From Paludibaculum fermentans (GTDB taxonomy: Bacteria; Acidobacteriota; Terriglobia; Bryobacterales; Bryobacteraceae), in the NCBI RefSeq assembly GCF_015277775.1, contig NZ_CP063849.1:3844001-3908000 (forward strand): a stretch of DNA of 64,000 bases, given 5' to 3'. The notes beneath the pieces were generated by a model. It saw only the letters and a program-made list of their open reading frames with translations. It was not told the DNA's origin and searched no databases. Shown one piece after another: positions 3,560-64,000 of this stretch (position 1 is the stretch's first letter; each line of letters begins with the position of its first letter). A program made the translations under genes and the position numbers.

Positions 3560-4018
3560 TCAATCTGCCTCCATCATGCGCGAAACCAGCGTATACAACT
3601 GGATCCAGTCTTCCTTCGCCTCTTCGGTGAATTCGTCGCCTAACTCCTGCTCCAGAGTCCAAATCAGCGCCGAGCCCACCACCGCGTAGTGGTCCGCCAC
3701 CGCCCCGTAGCTTTTGTGTCTGCGTCCCAATTCCCGCAACACCGGCACCAGTTCGTGCAGCCGATCCAGGCTTGCCACCAGGAGCTTTAACGTCTGGAAC
3801 AGTTTGCCCGCTTGCGGCCCCATCGCGGCAGGAAACATCGGCCGCACCTGTGGGGCCAGTTCGAACAGACGCGCGTAGAACTTGGCGCCCGCCTGTTCGG
3901 GCGATAGCTTCACCTTGGCGAACGTGCCGCGGAGCACCTCGATTTCGCGGGCCGGCCGCTCGACCAGGTGGCTCCGTGGAGGATCTAGACCATGCGCAAC
4001 AGGGGCCTCTCGCCTCAT
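3560..4018 (-). CDS. Single-domain bacterial globin
   Basis: 152 aa from ATG 4018. The fold resembles the Vitreoscilla haemoglobin/flavohaemoglobin globin domain: FYARLFELAPQVRPMF corresponds to the B/C helices with the distal-pocket Tyr, and GRRHKSYGAV carries the proximal F8 His. The following HYAVVGSALIWTLEQELG matches the G helix. It lacks an FAD/NAD reductase domain, so it would bind haem and handle O2 or NO using a separate reductase. The open frame continues 64 codons upstream to 4210, but that stretch is Pro/Arg-rich with no homology. ATG 4018 has a GAGGAAG about 12 nt upstream and gives the usual globin length. Confidence 0.8.
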   Translation of the reverse strand: MRREAPVAHGLDPPRSHLVERPAREIEVLRGTFAKVKLSPEQAGAKFYARLFELAPQVRPMFPAAMGPQAGKLFQTLKLLVASLDRLHELVPVLRELGRRHKSYGAVADHYAVVGSALIWTLEQELGDEFTEEAKEDWIQLYTLVSRMMEAD

Positions 4019-54803: not shown

Positions 54804-55099
54804 CAACCATTGAAGAACGAACAAAGAATCTGCTGTTGATGAGAGCCAGCACCGGCCGTTCCTCCCGGAACTCAGGACTGCGCAATGGGCCGCAAGGTTC
54901 GGATGCGCCACACAGGCTGTTTGAGGCCGGCCGGTAGTCCAAACTCAAACTTCCGCGAAGGCCCGAGACGGGCACGGATGTGGCCAATGGATGTCTGGCC
55001 ACGCCGGCATTCGGCGATGGTCCAACTTGAAGCTGGGGACGTCGACAGGGGAACGGACGGCACGAAAGAAGTTCCACCAAAGGGAGCGCGGGGGAGGGT

Positions 55100-55594
55100 G
55101 TGTTTTCCCTTGACAACTACTTATCATGGATCTCGCCGTCCGTCGCCGTCCCGTGCCTCGCTTTTTGTGGGCTTGGCCTTGCAGCCGAGGACAGGCCTGT
55201 TCGGATACAAGGGACAATTCCGGACTACACCGGTGGCAGTACGGAGCTTAAAGCATCGGTGACAGTCAGAAATGAGTCGACGCGACCAATTGTCGGCCTA
55301 GTTATTACCCTTCGAGAGGTCGGTGCCAAGAATCCGTTCGTTGCGCACAGGGAATTGTATGAGTCTGACGGTGCAAGGCGATGGCTGCGGCCGGCGGAGG
55401 GCAGGCAGGTGTTTATCCGTGTTGGCCGTAGCAAACATCGCCGAGCGTTTTTGCCGCCGGAGGTTGATTTAGTTCTCTTTGCAGACAATACAACATGGGG
55501 ACCTGATCGCCAACATAGCGCGGAATTTATGAAAGGTCTGCTGGCCGGTGTGCGAGTATCCTCATCGACGCCGGCACGTTCTCCGATAAACTGA
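55100..55594 (+). CDS. Hypothetical exported protein, 5' end altered by IS insertion
   Basis: The open frame from GTG 55100 begins inside the right end of the IS110 element; residues 1-9 (MFSLDNYLS) come from IS sequence. From there a hydrophobic segment (SVAVPCLAFCGLGLAA) resembles the end of a signal peptide, followed by a mature domain rich in beta-strand pattern (GSTELKASVTVRNESTRPIVGLVITLREVG), probably an Ig-like fold. The original start seems to have been removed by the insertion, so translation may now be lost or use an IS-derived start. No family is recognised. Confidence 0.5.
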   Translation: MFSLDNYLSWISPSVAVPCLAFCGLGLAAEDRPVRIQGTIPDYTGGSTELKASVTVRNESTRPIVGLVITLREVGAKNPFVAHRELYESDGARRWLRPAEGRQVFIRVGRSKHRRAFLPPEVDLVLFADNTTWGPDRQHSAEFMKGLLAGVRVSSSTPARSPIN

Positions 55595-55636
55595 GGATGC
55601 GTGCATCCTGGAGCAGTCTAAATCTTCGATCAATTT

Positions 55637-57337
55637 GTGATCCGCTTCATCTCCAACTTTGCCGTGCTGCTGCCAGTGGTCGTCTGCTGCGGCTTCCTCA
55701 CCTCCGCGGAGGTGGTCGAAATCTCCGGCCGTGTCGTCGAATCCGGATCCGGAACCCCCGTCGCCAACGCCCGCGTCGCACTCTTCCGCGTCACCCCGCG
55801 CAGCATCCAGGTGCCGGGCGGTTGGATGTCGCAGGTGCCGGCGGACGACGCCAACCCCGAGGGCAATGTCTTTCTCGCCGACACCGCCGTCGACGGCAGC
55901 TTCCATTTCCGCGTCTCCAGCCCCGCGCTGTTGCTCCCACTCGCCTACGCCAAGGGTTTCGCCATCTCCAGCGACTTCACTGACCGTTCAAAGGTCGTCG
56001 AGATCCCCGGCGCCGGAGCCGCGCCCTCTTCCCTCCTTCTCTCTCTGGAGCGCGAGTCCTCCCTCTCGGGCCGCGTTCTGGACAAGGAGACTGGCGATCC
56101 CCTCTCCGGCTTCGCCGTCACCGCCCGGCTTTGGGCCCACGGAGCCGGTTGGGGTGGCCGCACGGTCGCGGCCGCCACTACCGATTCCTCGGGTGCCTAC
56201 GTGCTCACCGGTCTCCGGGCCGGCCGGTACGCGCTCCTGGTCCGGCCGCCCGCGAAGCCGGCCTTCACCGAGCCCCTCGACGACCAGGAGTTCCGCGATC
56301 GCGTCTCCACCGGCTACGGCCGGGCCATCTACCCCGGCGTGGACGACTTTGCATTAGCCACCCCCCTGGACATCTCGCCGGGATCCACCCTCGAAAAGCT
56401 CGACTTTCGCCTTCGCCGGAGTCGGCGCGGCGCGCTCCGCGGTTCCATATCGGTGCCCGGCGACGCCCGCGGAGCCGCCTTTGAACTCCAACTCTTCGAG
56501 GATCAATCCACTCTCTCGTCGCTGCAATTCGACCCGCTGGCCCGCCGTCCCGCTCTCGGTGGGGAGCGTTTTCTCATCGAGGATCTCTCTCCGGGAGCGT
56601 ACACACTGTGCGCCTCGACCCCGCAGGGCGGGCGCACCGCGCCGCTTATGGCCTGTGTGAACCTCTCCATGGACCACACCACCCGCGAAACCGCCGACCT
56701 TCGGCCCTTGCCGGATGTCGAACTGCAGGGCGCCCTCCGCTTCGTGGAGCAGCCGCCGCCCACCCAAGCCAAAGGTTATGCGCTGTTGGCCCTGCGGCCG
56801 GTCGGGCGCCCCTCCTTCTGGTGGGACAGTCCGGTGAGTGTCCCTCTCGGCGCCAGCCCCGAAGGCCTCTTCCCTGTGCCGCCCGCCATGCCCGGGCGCT
56901 ACGACGTCGAAGTGAGCGGCCTGCCGCCCAGCCTGGCCGTAGCCGGAATCCGTTGGAACGGAGCAGCCGTCACCGGGCGCCGCATCACCATCGACGGTGC
57001 GGCGCCGCGACAGCAACTGGAGCTCGTGCTAACGGCGGCTCTGGCCACGCTCAAGGTCACGCTCAAGGAGGGAAGAAAGAGCGCGGGCGATTGGGTCCTA
57101 CTGGTACCGGATTCCACCCCACCAGAGCGCATCCTCTGGGAAAGCCGCTCCGCCAATGCCGATCTGGACGGCCGTGCCGTCTTTGCCGCTCTGCCGCCGG
57201 GCCGCTACCGTCTCGTGGCGCTCCCCAACGATGGGCGTCCGCTCAGAGACTATCCGATGGACGACCGCTTGCGCGCGGCCCGTGTCGTCGAACTCCGACC
57301 CAGCGAAACCGTCCAGGTCGAAGCATCACCCCATTAG
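55637..57337 (+). CDS. Exported protein with repeated carboxypeptidase-regulatory-like domains
   Basis: 566 aa; start GTG 55637, no clear ribosome binding site. Signal peptide (FAVLLPVVVCCGFLTSAE). Several carboxypeptidase-regulatory/CNA-B-like beta-sandwich units: VEISGRVVESGSGTPVANARVALF, SSLSGRVLDKETGDPLSGFAVTARL then DSSGAYVLTGLRAGRYALLV, and AMPGRYDVEVSGLPPSLAVAGIRWNGA toward the C-terminus. Acidobacterial genomes encode many such surface or periplasmic proteins of unknown function, some fused to TonB receptors; here no such fusion. C-rich codon use. Confidence 0.72.
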   Translation: MIRFISNFAVLLPVVVCCGFLTSAEVVEISGRVVESGSGTPVANARVALFRVTPRSIQVPGGWMSQVPADDANPEGNVFLADTAVDGSFHFRVSSPALLLPLAYAKGFAISSDFTDRSKVVEIPGAGAAPSSLLLSLERESSLSGRVLDKETGDPLSGFAVTARLWAHGAGWGGRTVAAATTDSSGAYVLTGLRAGRYALLVRPPAKPAFTEPLDDQEFRDRVSTGYGRAIYPGVDDFALATPLDISPGSTLEKLDFRLRRSRRGALRGSISVPGDARGAAFELQLFEDQSTLSSLQFDPLARRPALGGERFLIEDLSPGAYTLCASTPQGGRTAPLMACVNLSMDHTTRETADLRPLPDVELQGALRFVEQPPPTQAKGYALLALRPVGRPSFWWDSPVSVPLGASPEGLFPVPPAMPGRYDVEVSGLPPSLAVAGIRWNGAAVTGRRITIDGAAPRQQLELVLTAALATLKVTLKEGRKSAGDWVLLVPDSTPPERILWESRSANADLDGRAVFAALPPGRYRLVALPNDGRPLRDYPMDDRLRAARVVELRPSETVQVEASPH

Positions 57338-57529
57338 GTGGAAGAAAAGGACGGCCCTGAACCCGGAATGCAGCGTGGCCAGCATTAGGCTGCGGCCGCG
57401 CACGGAAAGACGCCAGCCTGAGAGCCTGCCGGAAACAGAGTACACTCCACCATCGATTCGCTGAGGCCACTTTGACCTTGGTTGCATCCATGCCGTCTCT
57501 CCATGACGTTATTCAGATCTTGTAATTCT

Positions 57530-57925
57530 GATTCACCCTCTCTGCTTCTTGCGTCACTCGAGGATTGGCTCCCGAGGGCCTCTCGCCCGCCTTGTCGCGA
57601 ATGTGGTCGACACCCTGGATCTGAGCTTCGTCCTTGTCGCGCAAACGCGGAAGGACGGCCGCGGTAAGGCCGCCTGCCACCCGATCCTGCCGGTCCGCCT
57701 TCTGGTCTACGGCTACGCCGTGGGGAAGCGGAGTTCTCGTCAGGTGGAGCGCGCCACCTAGGACGAAGTGCCCTTTCGCTACCTTGCCCGCCGATCAGCA
57801 TCCCGATCAGGACACGATCTCCGCGATCCGGCGGGTCCACCTACAGGAGCTCGCGAAATTGATTCTGCAGGTTCTCGCTCTACGCAGGAAGGCCGGCAGG
57901 AAGGTGGACGGCCCTTTTCCCCGTC
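57530..57925 (+). pseudogene. Degraded IS1182-like transposase (N-terminal remnant)
   Basis: Three frames in succession spell an IS1182/IS4-like transposase N-terminus: LEDWLP near 57558; then LARLVANVVDTLDLSFVLVA...GRGKAACHPILPVRLLVYGYAVGKRSSRQVERAT in the 57549-57761 frame, ended by a stop; then DEVPFRYLA and ADQHPDQDTISAIRRVHLQELAKLILQVLALRRKAG after a shift. The DWLP, YGYAVG, SSRxxERAT and ADQHPDxDTI motifs identify the family. The catalytic C-terminal two thirds are missing. It is an old relic in the spacer before the RtcB2 operon. Confidence 0.7.
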
Positions 57926-58066
57926 CCCTTTTCCACTCCTGAACCGGCTCCTCCCCCAGGTAAGGCGGACGCCCTCGTCCCCAACCGCCCACCTGGCCAC
58001 CCCTCCTCAATGCCACCGTATTTCCCTGCAAATTCCAACAAATCCCCGCAATCCCACACCTTCTCG

Positions 58067-58095
58067 TTGACAGCACCACCTTCACGTGGTACTCT
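58067..58095 (+). promoter_or_regulatory. Sigma70-like promoter of the RtcB2-PrfH operon
   Basis: Perfect -35 TTGACA (58067-58072), 17-nt spacer and TACTCT (58090-58095) with an extended -10 TGG just upstream (58087-58089). The expected start site near 58102 leads into GGAAAGGAG (58102-58110) before a short leader frame. Confidence 0.6.
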
Positions 58096-58115
58096 GCTTC
58101 TGGAAAGGAGCCATC

Positions 58116-58211
58116 GTGCGACAATTCAACTCGAATTTATCCACATATCCACGCCTTGGAAACGGCGCGGTGCCTGATGGCTCGTCTACGTTCCGTCTCG
58201 CCCGCGCTTAA
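58116..58211 (+). CDS. Possible 31-codon leader peptide
   Basis: GTG 58116 is 5 nt after a strong GGAAAGGAG. The frame encodes MRQFNSNLSTYPRLGNGA and ends at TAA 58209-58211, 34 nt before the ATG of the next gene. It has no homology and could be a translated upstream ORF coupling operon expression to ribosome state, or a fortuitous frame. Confidence 0.35.
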   Translation: MRQFNSNLSTYPRLGNGAVPDGSSTFRLARA

Positions 58212-58245
58212 CCCCTCAACCTCTCACAACCTGATTGAGGAGTTT

Positions 58246-58983
58246 ATGACGACCACAGACTCGCTGTGTCGGCATTTCTCCCGTATGGGCGCACGGCTCA
58301 AACTCCGACAGCCGGATGCGCGCCAGGGAGAGAAGATCCGCATAGACGTCGGCAGGGATCGTGTCGGCGAATTCTTCGATATTCGCTACCATGCCGGGAT
58401 CATCCCGGAAGTCCTGGACGTCCGGCCCGATATCCATCATCTCGTCTTGATGGTCCGGGACGGCCGCGCCAAGTACAAATACCTGCTCGGCCGCGATGAA
58501 CGTCACTGGTTCGCCGCCGCGGTGCCCGGTGACGGTGTTCGCGATGTACGTTCCGCCATGGCTAGCCTTCTACCCGCTGAGGTCGAAGGCCGCAGCTACA
58601 CCCGGCAGGGTGAGTGGTTCTTTGTTCGGGTACGGGATGTCCCTCCGGATGCCCTGTACTTTCGCCATGAACCGCTCAGCCGTGGCGCCGGCAGCAAGCC
58701 TCACCTCTGCGAAGAGCTCATGAGGCGCGGCGGCACCACCGTGATGGTCTCCCCGGCTCATCCCAATGGGATCGATGCCGTCGAATACCAGACGCTGATC
58801 GCCTCCGACCCCGACGCCTGGCGCCTGAACTGGCGGCAAATGGTGCGGGATGCCGAGGTATTTGCCCGTGGAGACATCCGCCATCGCGATCACAGAACCA
58901 TCCGTCTCAACGGATGGCATCGCGTCTACCTGAACCGGGAACGCTTCGCGGCCCACGCGCCGCAGATCGCGTTCCTGGACTAA
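58246..58983 (+). CDS. Conserved protein of unknown function, first gene of RtcB2-PrfH operon
   Basis: 245 aa from ATG 58246, preceded by TTGAGGAG; a longer frame from 58156 overlaps the leader ORF. Mixed alpha/beta protein without signal peptide or TM. Conserved-looking blocks: GEFFDIRY, DVRPDIHHLVLMVRDG, YLLGRDERHWFAAAVP (D84, E85, H87), RQGEWFFV (G122-E-W), and RHRDHRTIRLNGWHRVYLNRE near the C-terminus. Homologues seem widespread, but I recognise no assigned function. Its genomic position right before RtcB2 and PrfH suggests a role in RNA end-processing or ribosome repair. No nuclease or kinase motif such as Walker A is present. Confidence 0.75.
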   Translation: MTTTDSLCRHFSRMGARLKLRQPDARQGEKIRIDVGRDRVGEFFDIRYHAGIIPEVLDVRPDIHHLVLMVRDGRAKYKYLLGRDERHWFAAAVPGDGVRDVRSAMASLLPAEVEGRSYTRQGEWFFVRVRDVPPDALYFRHEPLSRGAGSKPHLCEELMRRGGTTVMVSPAHPNGIDAVEYQTLIASDPDAWRLNWRQMVRDAEVFARGDIRHRDHRTIRLNGWHRVYLNRERFAAHAPQIAFLD

Positions 58984-58988
58984 CCCCG

Positions 58989-59020
58989 GGGGGGTGCCCG
59001 CCATCCGGTGGGCGCCCCCC
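58989..59020 (+). promoter_or_regulatory. Very strong intercistronic RNA hairpin
   Basis: GGGGGGTGCCC (58989-58999) pairs with GGGCGCCCCCC (59010-59020) with a single U-G wobble, and inner GCC/GGT extends the stem to about 14 bp around an ATCC loop. It starts 5 nt after the stop of the first gene and lies 32 nt before the rtcB2 start. No T-run follows, so termination is unlikely; it may stabilise, process or attenuate the mRNA. Confidence 0.6.
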
Positions 59021-59052
59021 ACCCCACAACGGAATCTGACGGAAGGGATTGC

Positions 59053-60171
59053 TTGACTCACGAAACGTGTGAAGTCCGGCTCGTCGCCTCGCCATCCAAT
59101 TGGATCGAAGGCGCAGCCGTGCAGCAGTTGGAAAAGACGGCCACACTCCCGGGCATGCGGCTCGCAGTGGGCCTGCCGGATTTGCATCCGGGCAAGGGGA
59201 GCCCCATCGGGGCCACCTTCTTCGCCGAGGGATGTCTCTACCCGGCTTTGGTAGGCAATGACATCGGGTGCGGCATCGGTCTGTGGCAGACCGGGCTCAG
59301 CGCCCGCAACCGAAAACTCGAAACCTGGGCGGACCGCCTGCGCGACCTCGACCGGCCCTGGGATGGCGGCATCCCGCAGCTCCTCGCCGCGCGGGGCATC
59401 GCGCCCGGCCCGCAGGATCACACGCTGGGCACCATCGGCGGAGGCAACCACTTCGCCGAACTCCAGCAGCTCGAGAATCTCGTCCATCCGGCCGCCTGCG
59501 CGGAGCTCGGCCTGCAAGCGGGCGCGCTGTATCTGTGCGTGCACAGCGGCTCGCGCGGCCTGGGCGAGGCGATCCTGCGCGAGCACGTCGACCGGCACGG
59601 TTTCGGAGGGCTGCCGGAAGGCACCCCCGAGGCCGCGGCCTACCTCGCTCGGCACGATCAGGCCAGGCATTGGGCCTCGGCCAATCGCGAGGTCATCGCC
59701 GCTCGCATCCTGGAGTGCCTGCGCACCGAAGGAACCCGCCTGCTCGATCTCAGCCATAACTGGGTGGAGCGCGTGGATCTCGCCGGCACGTCCGGCTGGC
59801 TCCATCGCAAGGGCGCCGCGCCGTCCACGCAAGGCCCGGTCATCATCCCGGGCTCACGCGGAGCGTTCACCTATCTCGTCCGGCCGCTCCATCCCAGCGC
59901 AACGAGCGGCTACTCCCTGGCCCACGGAGCCGGCCGCAAATGGTCCCGCTCCGACAGCCGTGGACGGCTCGAGAAACGCTTCACCGCGAAGGACCTCACC
60001 CGCACGGAACTCGGCAGTCAGGTGATCTGCGAAGACAAGGAGTTGCTCTATGAAGAAGCGCCGCAGGCGTACAAGAACATCAATGTCGTCATCCAGGATC
60101 TGGTCGACGCCGGGCTGGCCGAGGTGCTGGCCATCCTGCGTCCTGTGATCACGTACAAGGTGCGCCGATGA
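59053..60171 (+). CDS. RtcB2 RNA ligase (RtcB-PrfH type)
   Basis: 372 aa from TTG 59053, preceded by GGAAGGG with 5-nt spacing; an earlier in-frame start would overlap the hairpin. RtcB family catalytic residues are all visible: C73 (NDIGCGIGLW), H133 (GGGNHFAEL), H164 (HSGSRGLG), H235 (SHNWV) and the guanylylated His H291 (AHGAGRKWSRS). PDLHPGKGSPIGA near residue 40 and YKNINVVIQDLVDAGLAEVLAILRPVITYK at the end match RtcB2, the short paralogue linked to PrfH. It uses GTP and Mn2+ to join 2',3'-cyclic or 3'-phosphate and 5'-OH ends, with the known E. coli homologue repairing cleaved 16S rRNA. Overlaps prfH (ATGA). Confidence 0.92.
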   Translation: MTHETCEVRLVASPSNWIEGAAVQQLEKTATLPGMRLAVGLPDLHPGKGSPIGATFFAEGCLYPALVGNDIGCGIGLWQTGLSARNRKLETWADRLRDLDRPWDGGIPQLLAARGIAPGPQDHTLGTIGGGNHFAELQQLENLVHPAACAELGLQAGALYLCVHSGSRGLGEAILREHVDRHGFGGLPEGTPEAAAYLARHDQARHWASANREVIAARILECLRTEGTRLLDLSHNWVERVDLAGTSGWLHRKGAAPSTQGPVIIPGSRGAFTYLVRPLHPSATSGYSLAHGAGRKWSRSDSRGRLEKRFTAKDLTRTELGSQVICEDKELLYEEAPQAYKNINVVIQDLVDAGLAEVLAILRPVITYKVRR

Positions 60172-60797
60172 CGCCCCATCCCTCTCACGCCTGGTTCCAG
60201 GTCAGCGCCGGCCAAGGCCCGGCGGAATGTGCCTGGGCCGTCGTCAAAACACTGGAAACCATGCAGGCTGAGGCACAAGCCGCCGGCCTCCAATGGAACC
60301 TCGTCGAACTCGAGGCGGGCCCCCAACCGGGAACCGCCTCTTCCGCCCTCGTCGCCCTCTCCGGCGAGCGCATCGACACCTTCGCCGCCGCCTGGTGCGG
60401 CACCGTTCAGTGGATCGCCCGGAGCCCGTTCCGCCCGGCCCACAAGCGCAAGAACTGGTTCGTGGCCATTGAACGGCTCCAACCGGTGGAGGAGTCCAGC
60501 CTCGACCCGAAGGACGTCCGCTGGGAGACCATGCGCGCCAGCGGTCCGGGCGGACAACACGTGAACCGCACGGAATCCGCGGTTCGTGTCACGCACCTGC
60601 CGACGGGCTTGCAGGCGGTCTCCGCCAATGAACGCTCGCAGCACCGCAACCGCCAGTTGGCGCTGGCCCGGCTCTCCGCCAGGCTCGCCGCCCTGGAGCA
60701 GGAGCGCCGCGCCCGCACTGGCCAACTGCGCTGGCAGGCCCACCAGAGCCTCGAGCGCGGGAACCCGGTCCGGGTTTTCCGAAGCCCCGGTGGCTGA
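60168..60797 (+). CDS. prfH: PrfH, RtcB2-associated peptide chain release factor
   Basis: 209 aa. Class I release-factor catalytic domain with GGQ at 128-130 (ASGPGGQHVNRTESAV) and the flanking conserved THLPTGLQAVSANERSQHRN. The N-terminal part is shorter than in RF1/RF2 and lacks their stop-codon-recognition motifs (PxT, SPF). PrfH proteins release nascent chains from ribosomes with damaged decoding centres so that RtcB2 can repair the rRNA. ATG 60168 overlaps the rtcB2 stop, so the two are translationally coupled. C-terminal tail is basic and Arg-rich (ARTGQLRWQAHQSLERG). Confidence 0.92.
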   Translation: MTPHPSHAWFQVSAGQGPAECAWAVVKTLETMQAEAQAAGLQWNLVELEAGPQPGTASSALVALSGERIDTFAAAWCGTVQWIARSPFRPAHKRKNWFVAIERLQPVEESSLDPKDVRWETMRASGPGGQHVNRTESAVRVTHLPTGLQAVSANERSQHRNRQLALARLSARLAALEQERRARTGQLRWQAHQSLERGNPVRVFRSPGG

Positions 60798-60979
60798 GGC
60801 CCGGCCCGCCGGCTCGCTGCGTTCGCGCGCCGGCGGGCTTCGACCAGGTGGCTGCGGAGGGGGCGGTCCCTGGCCGGCCGCTTTCCATCGCCGCTGCGCC
60901 TGGTGTGGTGGAGGTCTGGTTCGCGGCACTTCGCGGGCTCCAGCATCGGGAGGTCGGCTGCCGGCAGGCCAGCGGCGAC

Positions 60980-61705
60980 ACGCTGTGGAAGACGCGCGAG
61001 TTGGAGTATGGGCCTTTTCGCTGGTTGGTTCGAGGCTTGCCGTTGCTCCCCCGCTCCTTTTAGTCGCGGCTCTGAACTTGGCGTCCTCGGCCTTGGCGGG
61101 GCGGGGGCCATGGGTGGGGGACTCGATTGAAGACACGCTGGCAAAGGGTCGTGATCCTGCACTGAGTGGAATCTTTCGGTGGCTATCCGCTCATTTACAT
61201 TCGCGGCTCAATTTGCGCTTCCTCCACTTTGGCGGCCCACTGAGGCATGGTGAGACGCCGTTGAAGACGCGCTGGCCCAGGGTCGCGAGACTGCCGGTGG
61301 GAGGCTTGCCGTTGCTCCCCCGCTCCTTTTAGTCGCGGCTCCGAAAGCGGCTTCCCTCGCTCTGGCGGAGAGTCGGGCCATGCGGGATTCCCTTGAAGAG
61401 GCGCTGGTAACGGCTCGTCCGGAGGGGGTCGTTGCAGCTCTTCAGCGGGCTATCCGCTCATTTACATTCGCGGCTCAATGTGCGGCTTCCTCCGCTTTGG
61501 CGGCCAGGAGGGCCATGGGGACTCCTTCCCGGTCGCGGTTCTCAGCGCGGTGGGGCCCCCTCCGTTGAAGACGCGCTGGCAAAGCGTCGCGATACTGCCA
61601 AAGTGGAGCCTTTCGGTGGCTATCCGCTCATTTACATTCGCGGCTCCATGTGCGGCTTGCTTTGCTTTGGCGGCCCATGGGGCCATGAGGGGACTCCGTT
61701 GCGGT
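60980..61705. repeat. Imperfect tandem repeat array with hairpin units
   Basis: Five to six units of about 120-170 bp start near 60982, 61125, 61261, 61393 and 61565 with GTTGAAGACGCGCTGG-like sequence. Two alternating core types follow. Type alpha shares an identical 26-nt segment containing CTCATTTACATTCGCGGCTC at about 61185, 61450 and 61621. Type beta shares an identical 41-nt segment at 61032-61072 and 61301-61341 containing CCGCTCCTTTTAGTCGCGG. Each unit holds several small CCGC/GCGG hairpins such as CCGCTTTGGCGG. The array fills most of the spacer between prfH and the next gene. Frames across it (both strands) encode repetitive, non-conserved peptides. Confidence 0.75.
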
Positions 61706-61724
61706 ACGCTGTTGTACTAACAAC

Positions 61725-64000
61725 GTGCCGCCTCGAGTTCACGTTCTCCTCATTCCGGTTCTGGCTGGACTTGCTTTCCCCTTCCCGGCCAGCGCGCAGC
61801 ATGATGTCTACCTGCGCGGCAAAGTCGTCATGGAAGACGGTTCCGTCCCGGAATACATGGTGACCGTCCAGCGCATCTGTTATGGCATGCAACAGCCTGT
61901 GCGCGAAGGCCTCACCTCCCGCAAGACCGGCGAATTCGTACTGCGCCTCTTCGTGAACGAGTTGGGCCAAGTCTATTCCGGTACGAACGGCTACGCTGGC
62001 CTGCCGTGCAGCCTGGAAGCTTCCCATCCGGGTGTCATCTCATCCCGCATCGACCTCACGGACCGCCGCATCACCCTCAATCCGCGCCTGCCCGATCTCA
62101 TCCTGACACCGAAATCCCAGAGCGCCACCCTCCTCGTCAAGGCCAACGTCTCACTCCCGCGAGCCGCCTCCCGCAGTTGGGAGCTGGCCGTCAAACGCCT
62201 CACCTCGAACGACTGGGATGGCTCCGAAGCGCCGTTGCGCGCGACCGTGCAGGCGGCGCCCAAGTTCGCGCCCGCCTGGGCCGCGCTGGGCGGTGTCTCT
62301 TCGCGCCAGGGCAAGATGGACGAGGCACGCCGCACGCTGGAGCGCGCCGTCGAACTGGATCCTAAACCGATCGCTCCTTACCAGATGCTGGTGCAGGCCC
62401 AGGCTGGCCTGAAGGACTGGCCGGCCGTCGCGGCCACCTGCGATAAGCTCTTCGCGGTCGATACCAAGCACGCCTATCTGGAAGCCTACCTATACAGCGC
62501 CACGGCCCTCTACCAGTTGCACAACTACGATCAGGCCCTGGCGCGCATCGACGACGCGATCCGCTTCGATCGCCTGCACGAATTCAAACGAGCCGAGTAC
62601 ATCCGTGGCATCGTTCTCGAAGCCAAGGGCGACTATGACGCCGCCGCGAAGAATCTCCGCAGCTACCTCGCCGCGAACCCTCGCGCCAAAGAGGCGGCCG
62701 CTATCCACCAGAGAATCGAGAACCTCGGCAAGGAACCACCCGCGGACCTCTCAGAGGAACTCAGCAGCCTCGATCTCAACATGGCGGCTACGGGCGAGAC
62801 CCAGGTGCCCGGCGGCATCAAAGCGTTCTCCACCATCGCGCAGTTACCCGCCACGCCAACCCCGCACGATTTCTTCCTCGAGTACTGCCGTGCCATCACG
62901 GCCAGCCGTCTCGATCTGCCCAACAGGACCCTCGAGGACCAGGAGACCATCGTCGACTTCATCCCGACCATCGCCGCGCTGGAAAGCCTGGGCGAACGCA
63001 CCGAGCGCGGCTCGGTGATCCGCCTCTCCACCACCGGCGACGCCGCCCTGCGCAGAACCCGCGCCATTCTGGCGGAACTCGGCTGGAAGCTGGTCCCTTC
63101 CGGCGAAGGCTACGCCCTGGAAGAGGGTATCCGGAAAGACGGCGCGCTGCGGCAACGAGCCCTGGCCGGCCTGGGCGTGGAAGAACTGGATCTGCGCAAC
63201 GCTCTCCTCCACGCGCGTGAGTTCACTTTTGAAATCCCCAGGGAGACCGCCCGGCTGGTGGGTGGCGCCGCCTGGAGCCTGCTGCTGAAAGGTGTGCCCG
63301 AGGCTGCCGGCGGCCCCGCCGAAATCTTCCTCCGGGACAGGCGTTTCGCCAGGGTCTACGCCGGTCTCGGCGGCATGGATGGTGAATCGGCCGCCGCCCT
63401 TGTGTCGTCGGTGGGCCTGGCGAACCTGATCGTGAAATACTCCGCCATCACGGCCGCCTTTGCTGACTCCGTGGAGATCAGCGGCACGAAGGTAGTGGTC
63501 CCAGGCGGCGTCAAAGCCGAAGCGCTGTGGGCGAAACTGGCCGGTGCAAAACCGCAGGCCATCGCCCCGTTCCTGCGGGGGCTCTTTGAGAAGGACCAGG
63601 GCCGCCTGCTGGCCTTCTATCACGCCCTGGCGCATGCCGATGAGCGGCATCAGCAATTCTTCACGCAGACACCCGAACGCGTGGAGGCTTTCTACAAGTG
63701 GTATCACGACACTGCGCCTGTGCCGGGCTCCGTTTTGGCCTCCAAAGGCTGGCACGAAGAGATCCTGCAGTCGATACCGGTTGACGCTTCCGGCCGGGTT
63801 CAGTTCCCGGGCGGCCGCACCGCGTGGGGCAAGGACTCGGAGACAGACGACGAGATCCTGCTGCGACGCGCCCCACTGGAAGCCCTTGCGGCCCTGGTGC
63901 ACCTGGAGCAGAAGCGCGGCACACCCCTCAGCGGCCCGGCCGCCCAGTTGCTGGCCCGGAACTACGGCGAGTGGCGCAACCTCTTCGGCTACTTCGAGAA
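61725..64000 (+). CDS. Exported TPR protein, cut by window edge
   Basis: At least 758 codons, open to the end of the window. Start GTG 61725 gives a signal peptide (VHVLLIPVLAGLAFPFPASAQ). Residues about 26-150 form a beta-rich region. TPR-like repeats follow (AWAALGGVSSRQGKMDEARRTLERAVELDPKP; LHNYDQALARIDDAIRFDRLHEFKRAEYIRGIVLEAKGDYDAAAKNLR). The C-terminal part seen here (about 400-758) has no recognised motif. A GTTGT...ACAAC inverted repeat (61711-61724) abuts the start codon and may mask it. Begins about 20 nt after the repeat array. Confidence 0.75.
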   Translation, partial: MPPRVHVLLIPVLAGLAFPFPASAQHDVYLRGKVVMEDGSVPEYMVTVQRICYGMQQPVREGLTSRKTGEFVLRLFVNELGQVYSGTNGYAGLPCSLEASHPGVISSRIDLTDRRITLNPRLPDLILTPKSQSATLLVKANVSLPRAASRSWELAVKRLTSNDWDGSEAPLRATVQAAPKFAPAWAALGGVSSRQGKMDEARRTLERAVELDPKPIAPYQMLVQAQAGLKDWPAVAATCDKLFAVDTKHAYLEAYLYSATALYQLHNYDQALARIDDAIRFDRLHEFKRAEYIRGIVLEAKGDYDAAAKNLRSYLAANPRAKEAAAIHQRIENLGKEPPADLSEELSSLDLNMAATGETQVPGGIKAFSTIAQLPATPTPHDFFLEYCRAITASRLDLPNRTLEDQETIVDFIPTIAALESLGERTERGSVIRLSTTGDAALRRTRAILAELGWKLVPSGEGYALEEGIRKDGALRQRALAGLGVEELDLRNALLHAREFTFEIPRETARLVGGAAWSLLLKGVPEAAGGPAEIFLRDRRFARVYAGLGGMDGESAAALVSSVGLANLIVKYSAITAAFADSVEISGTKVVVPGGVKAEALWAKLAGAKPQAIAPFLRGLFEKDQGRLLAFYHALAHADERHQQFFTQTPERVEAFYKWYHDTAPVPGSVLASKGWHEEILQSIPVDASGRVQFPGGRTAWGKDSETDDEILLRRAPLEALAALVHLEQKRGTPLSGPAAQLLARNYGEWRNLFGYFE

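Follow-up and report, generated by a model that had tools for sequence, protein, structure and literature searches.

The locus considered here raises the question of what a third gene is doing beside two whose partnership in ribosome repair is already established. It lies between positions 58,067 and 60,797 of a 64,000-nucleotide stretch of the Paludibaculum fermentans genome (contig NZ_CP063849.1, positions 3,844,001–3,908,000 of the forward strand; hereafter, the window), where a gene for a 245-residue protein, here called X, precedes the RNA ligase gene rtcB2 and the release factor H gene prfH. The RtcB2-PrfH module is already known, and the X accessory is what is new. The locus is probably a three-gene RNA-repair operon. 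We favor, at a probability of about 0.6, the view that X is a basic accessory protein found across bacterial and phage RNA-repair and transfer RNA (tRNA) replacement loci, which has been recruited here to the ribosome-repair pair and is not specific to ribosomal RNA (rRNA). The link to RNA repair in general is drawn because, in several phyla and on large phage contigs, genes related to X are repeatedly found together with RtcB, RtcA, Ro60/TROVE and tRNA arrays.

All three genes are encoded on the forward strand. Gene X (58,246–58,983) begins with ATG behind a GAGGAG sequence and belongs to a family that ends in a conserved C-terminal Asp. The rtcB2 gene (59,053–60,171) begins with TTG behind GGAAGG, and prfH (60,168–60,797) with ATG, such that the rtcB2 stop and the prfH start overlap by 4 bp in the common sequence ATGA. 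RtcB2 scores 520 bits against a cut-off of 407 (NF007153/PRK09588) and 475 bits against 271.8 (TIGR03073), and also matches PF01139. Its motifs VGNDIGCG (residues 67–74), GGGNHF (129–134), HSGSRG (164–169), LSHN (233–236) and LAHGAGR (289–295) contain residues that we take to be the metal and guanylate ligands of the ligase. PrfH scores 263 bits against the NCBI family cut-off of 166.65 (TIGR03072) and carries its GGQ at residues 128–130. With both proteins over their family cut-offs and their genes adjacent and overlapping, this is an RtcB2-PrfH module. The preliminary description of the locus had reported the active-site residues of the ligase, the GGQ, the translational coupling of the pair and a third gene of unknown function ahead of it in the same orientation, and each of these agrees with what we find; the 245-residue X has no match in Pfam, NCBIfam, PADLOC or PHROGs at expectation values (E) up to 1, nor in the PDB at E up to 5. 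No RNA family was matched at E up to 1 between 56,500 and 62,500, and no RtcA was recognized among the open reading frames (ORFs) of 55,000–64,000, where no dedicated RtcA search was made.

The genome of 9.53 Mb (2 contigs) holds a single copy of X. Among 61 genomes (this one and 60 relatives), X is present in three, and in the other two (G002 and G006) it is likewise followed by RtcB2 and PrfH. A scan of GTDB genomes added one locus with the order X-RtcB2-PrfH (L047) and one with X-RtcB2 on a contig that ends inside RtcB2 (L049). Since G002, G006 and L047 have all three genes in this order and L049 has the first two, the arrangement is beyond chance. PrfH is seldom met in the phylum: of 396 genomes sampled there, one has a PrfH over the cut-off, and of 121 sampled from the family, three have a close PrfH, G512 among them. 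A single-sequence search of the same 396 genomes found X in four, one of them doubtful; a weak match in G113 (E = 8.5e-4) was not confirmed by tblastn and was dropped. Among the loci seen, X is paired with RtcB2-PrfH only in a small Acidobacterial group.

The family of X extends well beyond this group. The GTDB scan, made with a five-row alignment, found 210 relatives, of which the best 80 were kept (L044–L123), and a viral scan gave 77 loci; the 157 loci examined are these 80 and 77, the other 130 genome relatives being excluded. The kept genome relatives come from Acidobacteria, Planctomycetes, Verrucomicrobia, Chloroflexi, Deinococci and Spirochaetes. Many of the viral loci are on contigs longer than 100 kb, the largest of 533 kb, and include near-duplicates with identical match figures (L131/L132, L140/L141, L144/L145, L170–L172 and L199/L200). 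A PrfH match was found at 2 of the 157 loci and an RtcB of any kind at 12. The preliminary description had made its proposal depend on X not being rare near rtcB2/prfH in other genomes, and, taken literally, rare is what X is. Its suggestion of a part in RNA repair nevertheless stands on wider ground than it had claimed, while the specificity for damaged rRNA that it envisaged finds no support.

This wider ground is the neighborhood of the X genes. Gene calls around each locus were searched with seeds taken from the loci themselves; since the gene caller missed X at 5 of the 157 loci, and PrfH at L010 and L047, the partner counts are lower bounds. The 80 genome loci contain TROVE/Ro60 genes at 17 (13 within 3 kb), RtcB at 10 (8 within 3 kb), RtcA at 3, HNH at 9 and slipin at 5, and the 77 viral loci contain TROVE at 4, RtcB at 2 and HNH at 9. 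At least one of TROVE, RtcB, RtcA and PrfH is present at 24 genome loci and 6 viral loci. Partner genes are on the strand of X in 61 of 62 cases (HNH, slipin and viral loci included), and a co-directional neighborhood of RtcB, RtcA or TROVE is thus a feature of the family (24/80, PrfH included). TROVE matches were found in 13 of 20 hand-picked genomes of 3.7–9.8 Mb, and by our reckoning about 0.2 TROVE genes or fewer would be expected by chance in 80 such loci. RtcB, RtcA and TROVE genes stand on one or both sides of X at L083 (RtcB-X-RtcA), L103 (RtcB-X-methylase-RtcA), L111, L117, L104 and others. At L111 the ligase is RtcB2-like (51% identity), with no PrfH match. Pfam confirmed TROVE/vWA_Ro60, Band_7, HNH and RtcB among the seeds scanned, and showed the small gene that separates X from RtcA to be N6-adenine-methyltransferase-like; RtcA was named from its sequence, with no family scan. 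Some TROVE-like genes picked up by phmmer escape PF05731 (G558/L120).

Some further genes recur around X. The methyltransferase-like gene stands directly ahead of RtcA at L103:8852–9391 and L117:10605–11105, and may encode an RNA methylase that belongs to the repair locus. Slipin-like genes are found downstream of X at five Planctomycete loci (L068, the only one for which Band_7 was confirmed, L081, L086, L094 and L122). A protein of 508–557 residues, TROVE/vWA-like by eye, recurs near X together with one of 327–455 residues at L072, L163, L168 and L170–L172; one of these loci is from a genome and the other five are viral, including three that are nearly the same.

The second association is with tRNA genes, called with ARAGORN around the X loci. 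At least three tRNAs lie within 4 kb of X at 27 of the 80 genome loci, at least five at 25 genome and 22 viral loci, and at least ten at 20 genome loci (up to 42) and 10 viral loci. The tRNAs share the strand of X in 715 of 726 cases, and their density over the 157 loci falls from 0.81 per kb at 0–2 kb from X to 0.167 per kb at 6–8 kb. The two associations meet at single loci: L051 and L059 have the order 20 tRNAs-X-HNH-12 tRNAs-TROVE, L104 has 15 tRNAs-X-TROVE, and L111 has X-2 tRNAs-RtcB2-like-tRNAs with TROVE beyond. X is accompanied by a repair gene, by three or more tRNAs or by both at 35 of the 80 genome loci and 31 of the 77 viral ones. We set this label by hand on a tree of 106 X proteins (rows up to L152, minus L054, L116, L120 and L122). 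The label is clustered, none of 500 shuffles giving a count as low, and requires at least 24 changes, 12 of them forced by starred branches, which implies that the link of X to repair or tRNA genes was made or lost many times.

The window itself has neither array nor TROVE gene at X. The 4 kb on either side of X contain no tRNA, and the 46 tRNAs of the genome as a whole form no array, with never more than three of them in a 4-kb interval; the one TROVE match of the genome is at 4.729 Mb, 0.83 Mb from X. That match belongs to a separate RtcB and TROVE/Ro60 locus (G000:C1:4726798–4730844), which adjoins the lowest-scoring tRNA match of the genome (47.5 bits, over the Rfam gathering score). G002 and G006 keep an RtcB with the adjoining tRNA match, with no TROVE match.

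The X proteins share a set of invariant residues. They were aligned as the window protein with 85 of 118 relatives, one member being kept of each pair at least 72% alike and none beyond L165. Leu80, Gly82, Asp84, Phe89, Ala104, Arg120–Glu123, Phe126, His153, Gly209, His213, His216, Trp224, Glu232 and the final Asp245 are identical in all 86 rows, although for the stretches RQGEWFF and GxDExHxF this invariance is partly built in, because both served as search patterns in the genome and viral scans. His153, His213, His216 and the C-terminal Asp lie outside these patterns. Asn230 is kept in 83 of 86 rows and Asp215 in 82. The C-terminal Asp is present in 155 of 155 recovered ORFs from the 157 loci, L120 and L122 being excluded as improperly recovered. 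When divergent viral members are included in a 32-row alignment, His216 and the final Asp are kept and His213 varies. The proteins are basic, with isoelectric points of 8.4–11.4 (median 10.1) for 79 genome ORFs and a median of 9.9 for 42 viral ORFs. The charge points to RNA binding by X, and the conserved Asp, Glu, Arg, His and Asn residues with the terminal Asp to catalysis on RNA ends; taken by itself, such catalysis is conceivable, if somewhat short of an even chance.

Profile searches placed the family in no known class. The 86-member profile gave chance-level PDB matches only (best E 0.19, ribosomal L1), and Pfam, NCBIfam and PHROGs run over the 86 members returned nothing consistent, including no consistent endonuclease domain; two members reach phrog_29643, of unknown function (best E 4.7e-05). 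HNH-like and 2H-phosphoesterase interpretations of the X motifs were set aside, as no fold backs them. No matches were obtained for window X in plasmids or phages, for L051 in plasmids, or for L126, L185 and L163 in phages. The viral query L197 retrieved divergent relatives in 24 records of Microbacterium and Gordonia phages, two of which, when translated, match phrog_29643 and phrog_7247 (unknown function) and do not have the terminal Asp. In L205:3514–5037 and L206:4360–5631, from Microbacterium and Gordonia phages, an N-terminal phrog_7247 match is followed by an X-like C-terminal half. No description of X was found by title or abstract opening in a literature that is not searchable by sequence and whose subscription papers were mostly outside the scope. 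The X family is widespread and apparently undescribed.

Upstream of X, a promoter-like TTGACA-17-TACTCT is found on the forward strand at 58,067–58,095. The operon had been credited with a single good promoter; the element is there, and its quality is not upheld, as the -10 hexamer TACTCT matches the consensus at 3 of 6 positions and a consensus scan of 57,300–61,200 returned no promoters. Searched as TTGACA-N3-CCAC-N6-GTGGTA-N3-T with at most one mismatch, a pattern written from these very sequences, it occurs once in each of the three congeneric genomes, always ahead of X, and not at all in four other genomes (G512, G553, G547 and G548). Between the -35 and -10 hexamers is an inverted repeat, ACCAC-N6-GTGGT (58,075–58,090), a candidate repressor operator. 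It has two matches in the window against 0.03 expected, for a pattern chosen after the site was seen; the second match, at position 3678, is inside an ORF. The repeat is present at all five X-RtcB2 loci, as GTGGT with ACCAC (three) or CCCAC (two), L047 and L049 having close variants of the promoter and repeat element, and was not found at L045, L046 and L048, three loci with no RtcB2 detected close to X.

The element is followed by a candidate leader ORF of 31 codons (58,116–58,211, forward strand) with a GTG start behind GGAAAGGAG. In each of the eight Acidobacterial X leaders, a matching ribosome site is followed by a frame open for 26–32 codons; the leaders share GGAAAGGAG, except for GGAAAGGA in one and GAAAGGAG in one. 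The conservation is not frame-specific, with scores of 22.28, 22.63 and 21.33 over the three frames, so that coding by the leader is unproven. The operator-like repeat and candidate leader suggest, as sequence features, that expression is regulated. A 14-bp GC-rich hairpin (58,989–59,020, forward strand) lies between X and rtcB2, where the intergenic stretch of 69 nt folds at -40.7 kcal/mol (z = -2.70). GC-rich hairpins that differ in sequence are present at L009 (z = -1.50), L010 (z = -2.22) and L047 (z = -3.86), which makes four of five loci; none was found between X and rtcB2 at L049. Downstream of prfH, the window contains four diverged tandem copies of a unit at 61,122–61,690, spaced by 132–172 bp.

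Comparisons with known systems refer to those parts of the cited papers that were available. In E. coli, RtcB2-PrfH gives protection against colicin E3 (PMC9223846). As in the pair of E. coli ATCC25922, ligase and release factor form one operon in the window, which adds upstream X with its own leader and the hairpin between X and rtcB2. The available text of that paper mentions no third gene with the pair, the words "third gene" occurring 0 times in its main text. Extra genes around the pair are known from the RFH-RtcB operons of Burroughs and Aravind (2019; PMC6514570), where they encode a TPR protein, a Pol-beta nucleotidyltransferase and two further proteins, one combining a zinc ribbon with a charged helix and the other charged and helical; none of these descriptions appears to suit X. 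RNA repair with TROVE has been described in jumbo phages (PMC7824862), and X relatives adjoin the same genes as in Rtc and Ro60/TROVE loci, X being unnamed in what was available of PMC7824862 and PMC7790460. In Anabaena, TrcR co-represses a 26-tRNA operon, rtcB, slipin (hypothetical neighbor alr0739) and HNH genes (PMC10272220), an independent regulon that speaks for the favored reading and whose slipin is echoed by that downstream of X in Planctomycete loci.

Among bacterial and phage tRNA array units, those of mycobacteria have HNH endonucleases as their most widespread coding genes, their transfer has been inferred, and some hold a gene with an RF-1 domain (PMC5966550). A share of the X-family loci, with at least ten tRNAs at 20 of 80 genome loci, is likewise tRNA-dense with HNH nearby; the window genome differs from such units in having no array. 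Degenerate tRNA clusters have been reported in Planctomycetes (PMC4807772), and tRNA clusters are also treated in PMC12803027. The available parts of the tRNA array papers mention unnamed hypothetical proteins, none recognizable as X.

By analogy with the established E. coli pair, and from family membership, PrfH would release the stalled peptide and RtcB2 would reseal the cleaved 16S rRNA. X would bind broken tRNA or rRNA and would process or protect the cut ends such that an RtcB-type ligase can join them; in the window, we infer that this ligase is RtcB2. Several observations weigh against this reading. Overexpressed RtcB2 alone restored resistance in E. coli (PMC9223846), so that the known pair needs no third protein. 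G512 has an RtcB2-PrfH pair at 65–66% identity with no X within the 18 kb read, which makes X neither obligatory for the pair nor a constant part of the module. In G006, the X frame is interrupted near codon 218 (L010:8731–9472), with rtcB2 and prfH open, by either assembly error or decay. The hairpin could weaken the co-expression of X and RtcB2. None of the partners, HNH and slipin included, was seen with X at 43 of the 80 genome loci and 46 of the 77 viral loci, some of which are cut off by contig ends. TROVE is within 5 kb of X in 8 of the 13 hand-picked genomes that have it and elsewhere in 5, and RtcB is within 6 kb in 4 of 19, proportions that are not rates, as these genomes were chosen partly for their neighbors. 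No fold, PDB match or annotated domain backs RNA binding or catalysis, and part of the residue invariance is of our own making.

How X would act bears on the alternatives. A doubtful but serious one is that X is a non-catalytic adaptor or sensor, which keeps hold of broken tRNA or rRNA, or alerts a regulator to the damage, and leaves the ends unchanged. The high isoelectric point would suit such a role, as would the frequent position of X beside Ro60/TROVE, itself an RNA-binding scaffold. The identity of His153, His213, His216, Glu123, Glu232, Arg120 and the terminal Asp in 86 of 86 rows seems too much polar invariance for an adaptor, with the reservation that positions 120–126 are partly biased by the search patterns and that His213 varies in divergent phage members. 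The same His, Glu and Arg residues and the basic charge would also serve an RNase, for example one clearing damaged or host tRNA to be replaced by array tRNAs, the loci being attack-and-replace systems; the occurrence of X on phage contigs with tRNA arrays is in keeping with this. Destruction of tRNA would oppose the adjoining RtcB2-PrfH and RtcB/RtcA, which are known to rejoin RNA, and X is often without a constant partner, unlike a toxin that needs an antidote, and we regard an RNase as improbable.

The remaining alternatives concern the company that X keeps. X could be carried along with tRNA arrays and repair islands as a hitch-hiker, in the manner of the adjoining HNH genes, and take no part in RNA repair. 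HNH genes are common to many X loci and, as noted, widespread in mycobacterial arrays with inferred transfer (PMC5966550), and the 43 partnerless genome loci fit this view. It is less easily reconciled with compact RtcB-X-RtcA loci that have no arrays (L083 and L103), with X standing first in X-RtcB2-PrfH, with the single X match in 18 of 20 hand-picked genomes and with the lack of a consistent endonuclease domain in the 86 members; we consider it unlikely. The preliminary description had seen X as a dedicated third part of 16S rRNA repair by RtcB2-PrfH, for which the order kept in this genome, G002, G006 and L047 and the shared promoter element speak. That 155 of 157 scanned X loci have no PrfH match, that L045, L046 and L048 (64–68% identity) keep X and the leader with no RtcB2 or PrfH found in flanks of 8 kb on each side (5.8 kb downstream for L046), and that G512 has the pair alone make it very improbable.

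The reading of X as a general RNA-repair accessory, recruited to the ribosome-repair pair, thus remains the one we favor. A bolder version, which we consider rather unlikely as a whole, would make X the founder of a new class of RNA-repair enzymes with an active site formed by the conserved His residues and the C-terminal Asp. The class would be common to ribosome repair (RtcB2-PrfH), tRNA repair (RtcB/RtcA, Ro60) and the tRNA arrays of phages and mobile elements. In this operon, X would be induced when a repressor is lifted from the promoter repeat and translation of the leader senses damaged ribosomes. If the favored reading is correct, X would fill a gap among the components of bacterial RNA repair. 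The neighbors of its relatives link ribosome repair, Ro60/Rtc RNA repair and tRNA arrays, which are usually studied separately, and X is a concrete candidate, with named residues, for a protein that prepares or recognizes broken RNA ends for RtcB.

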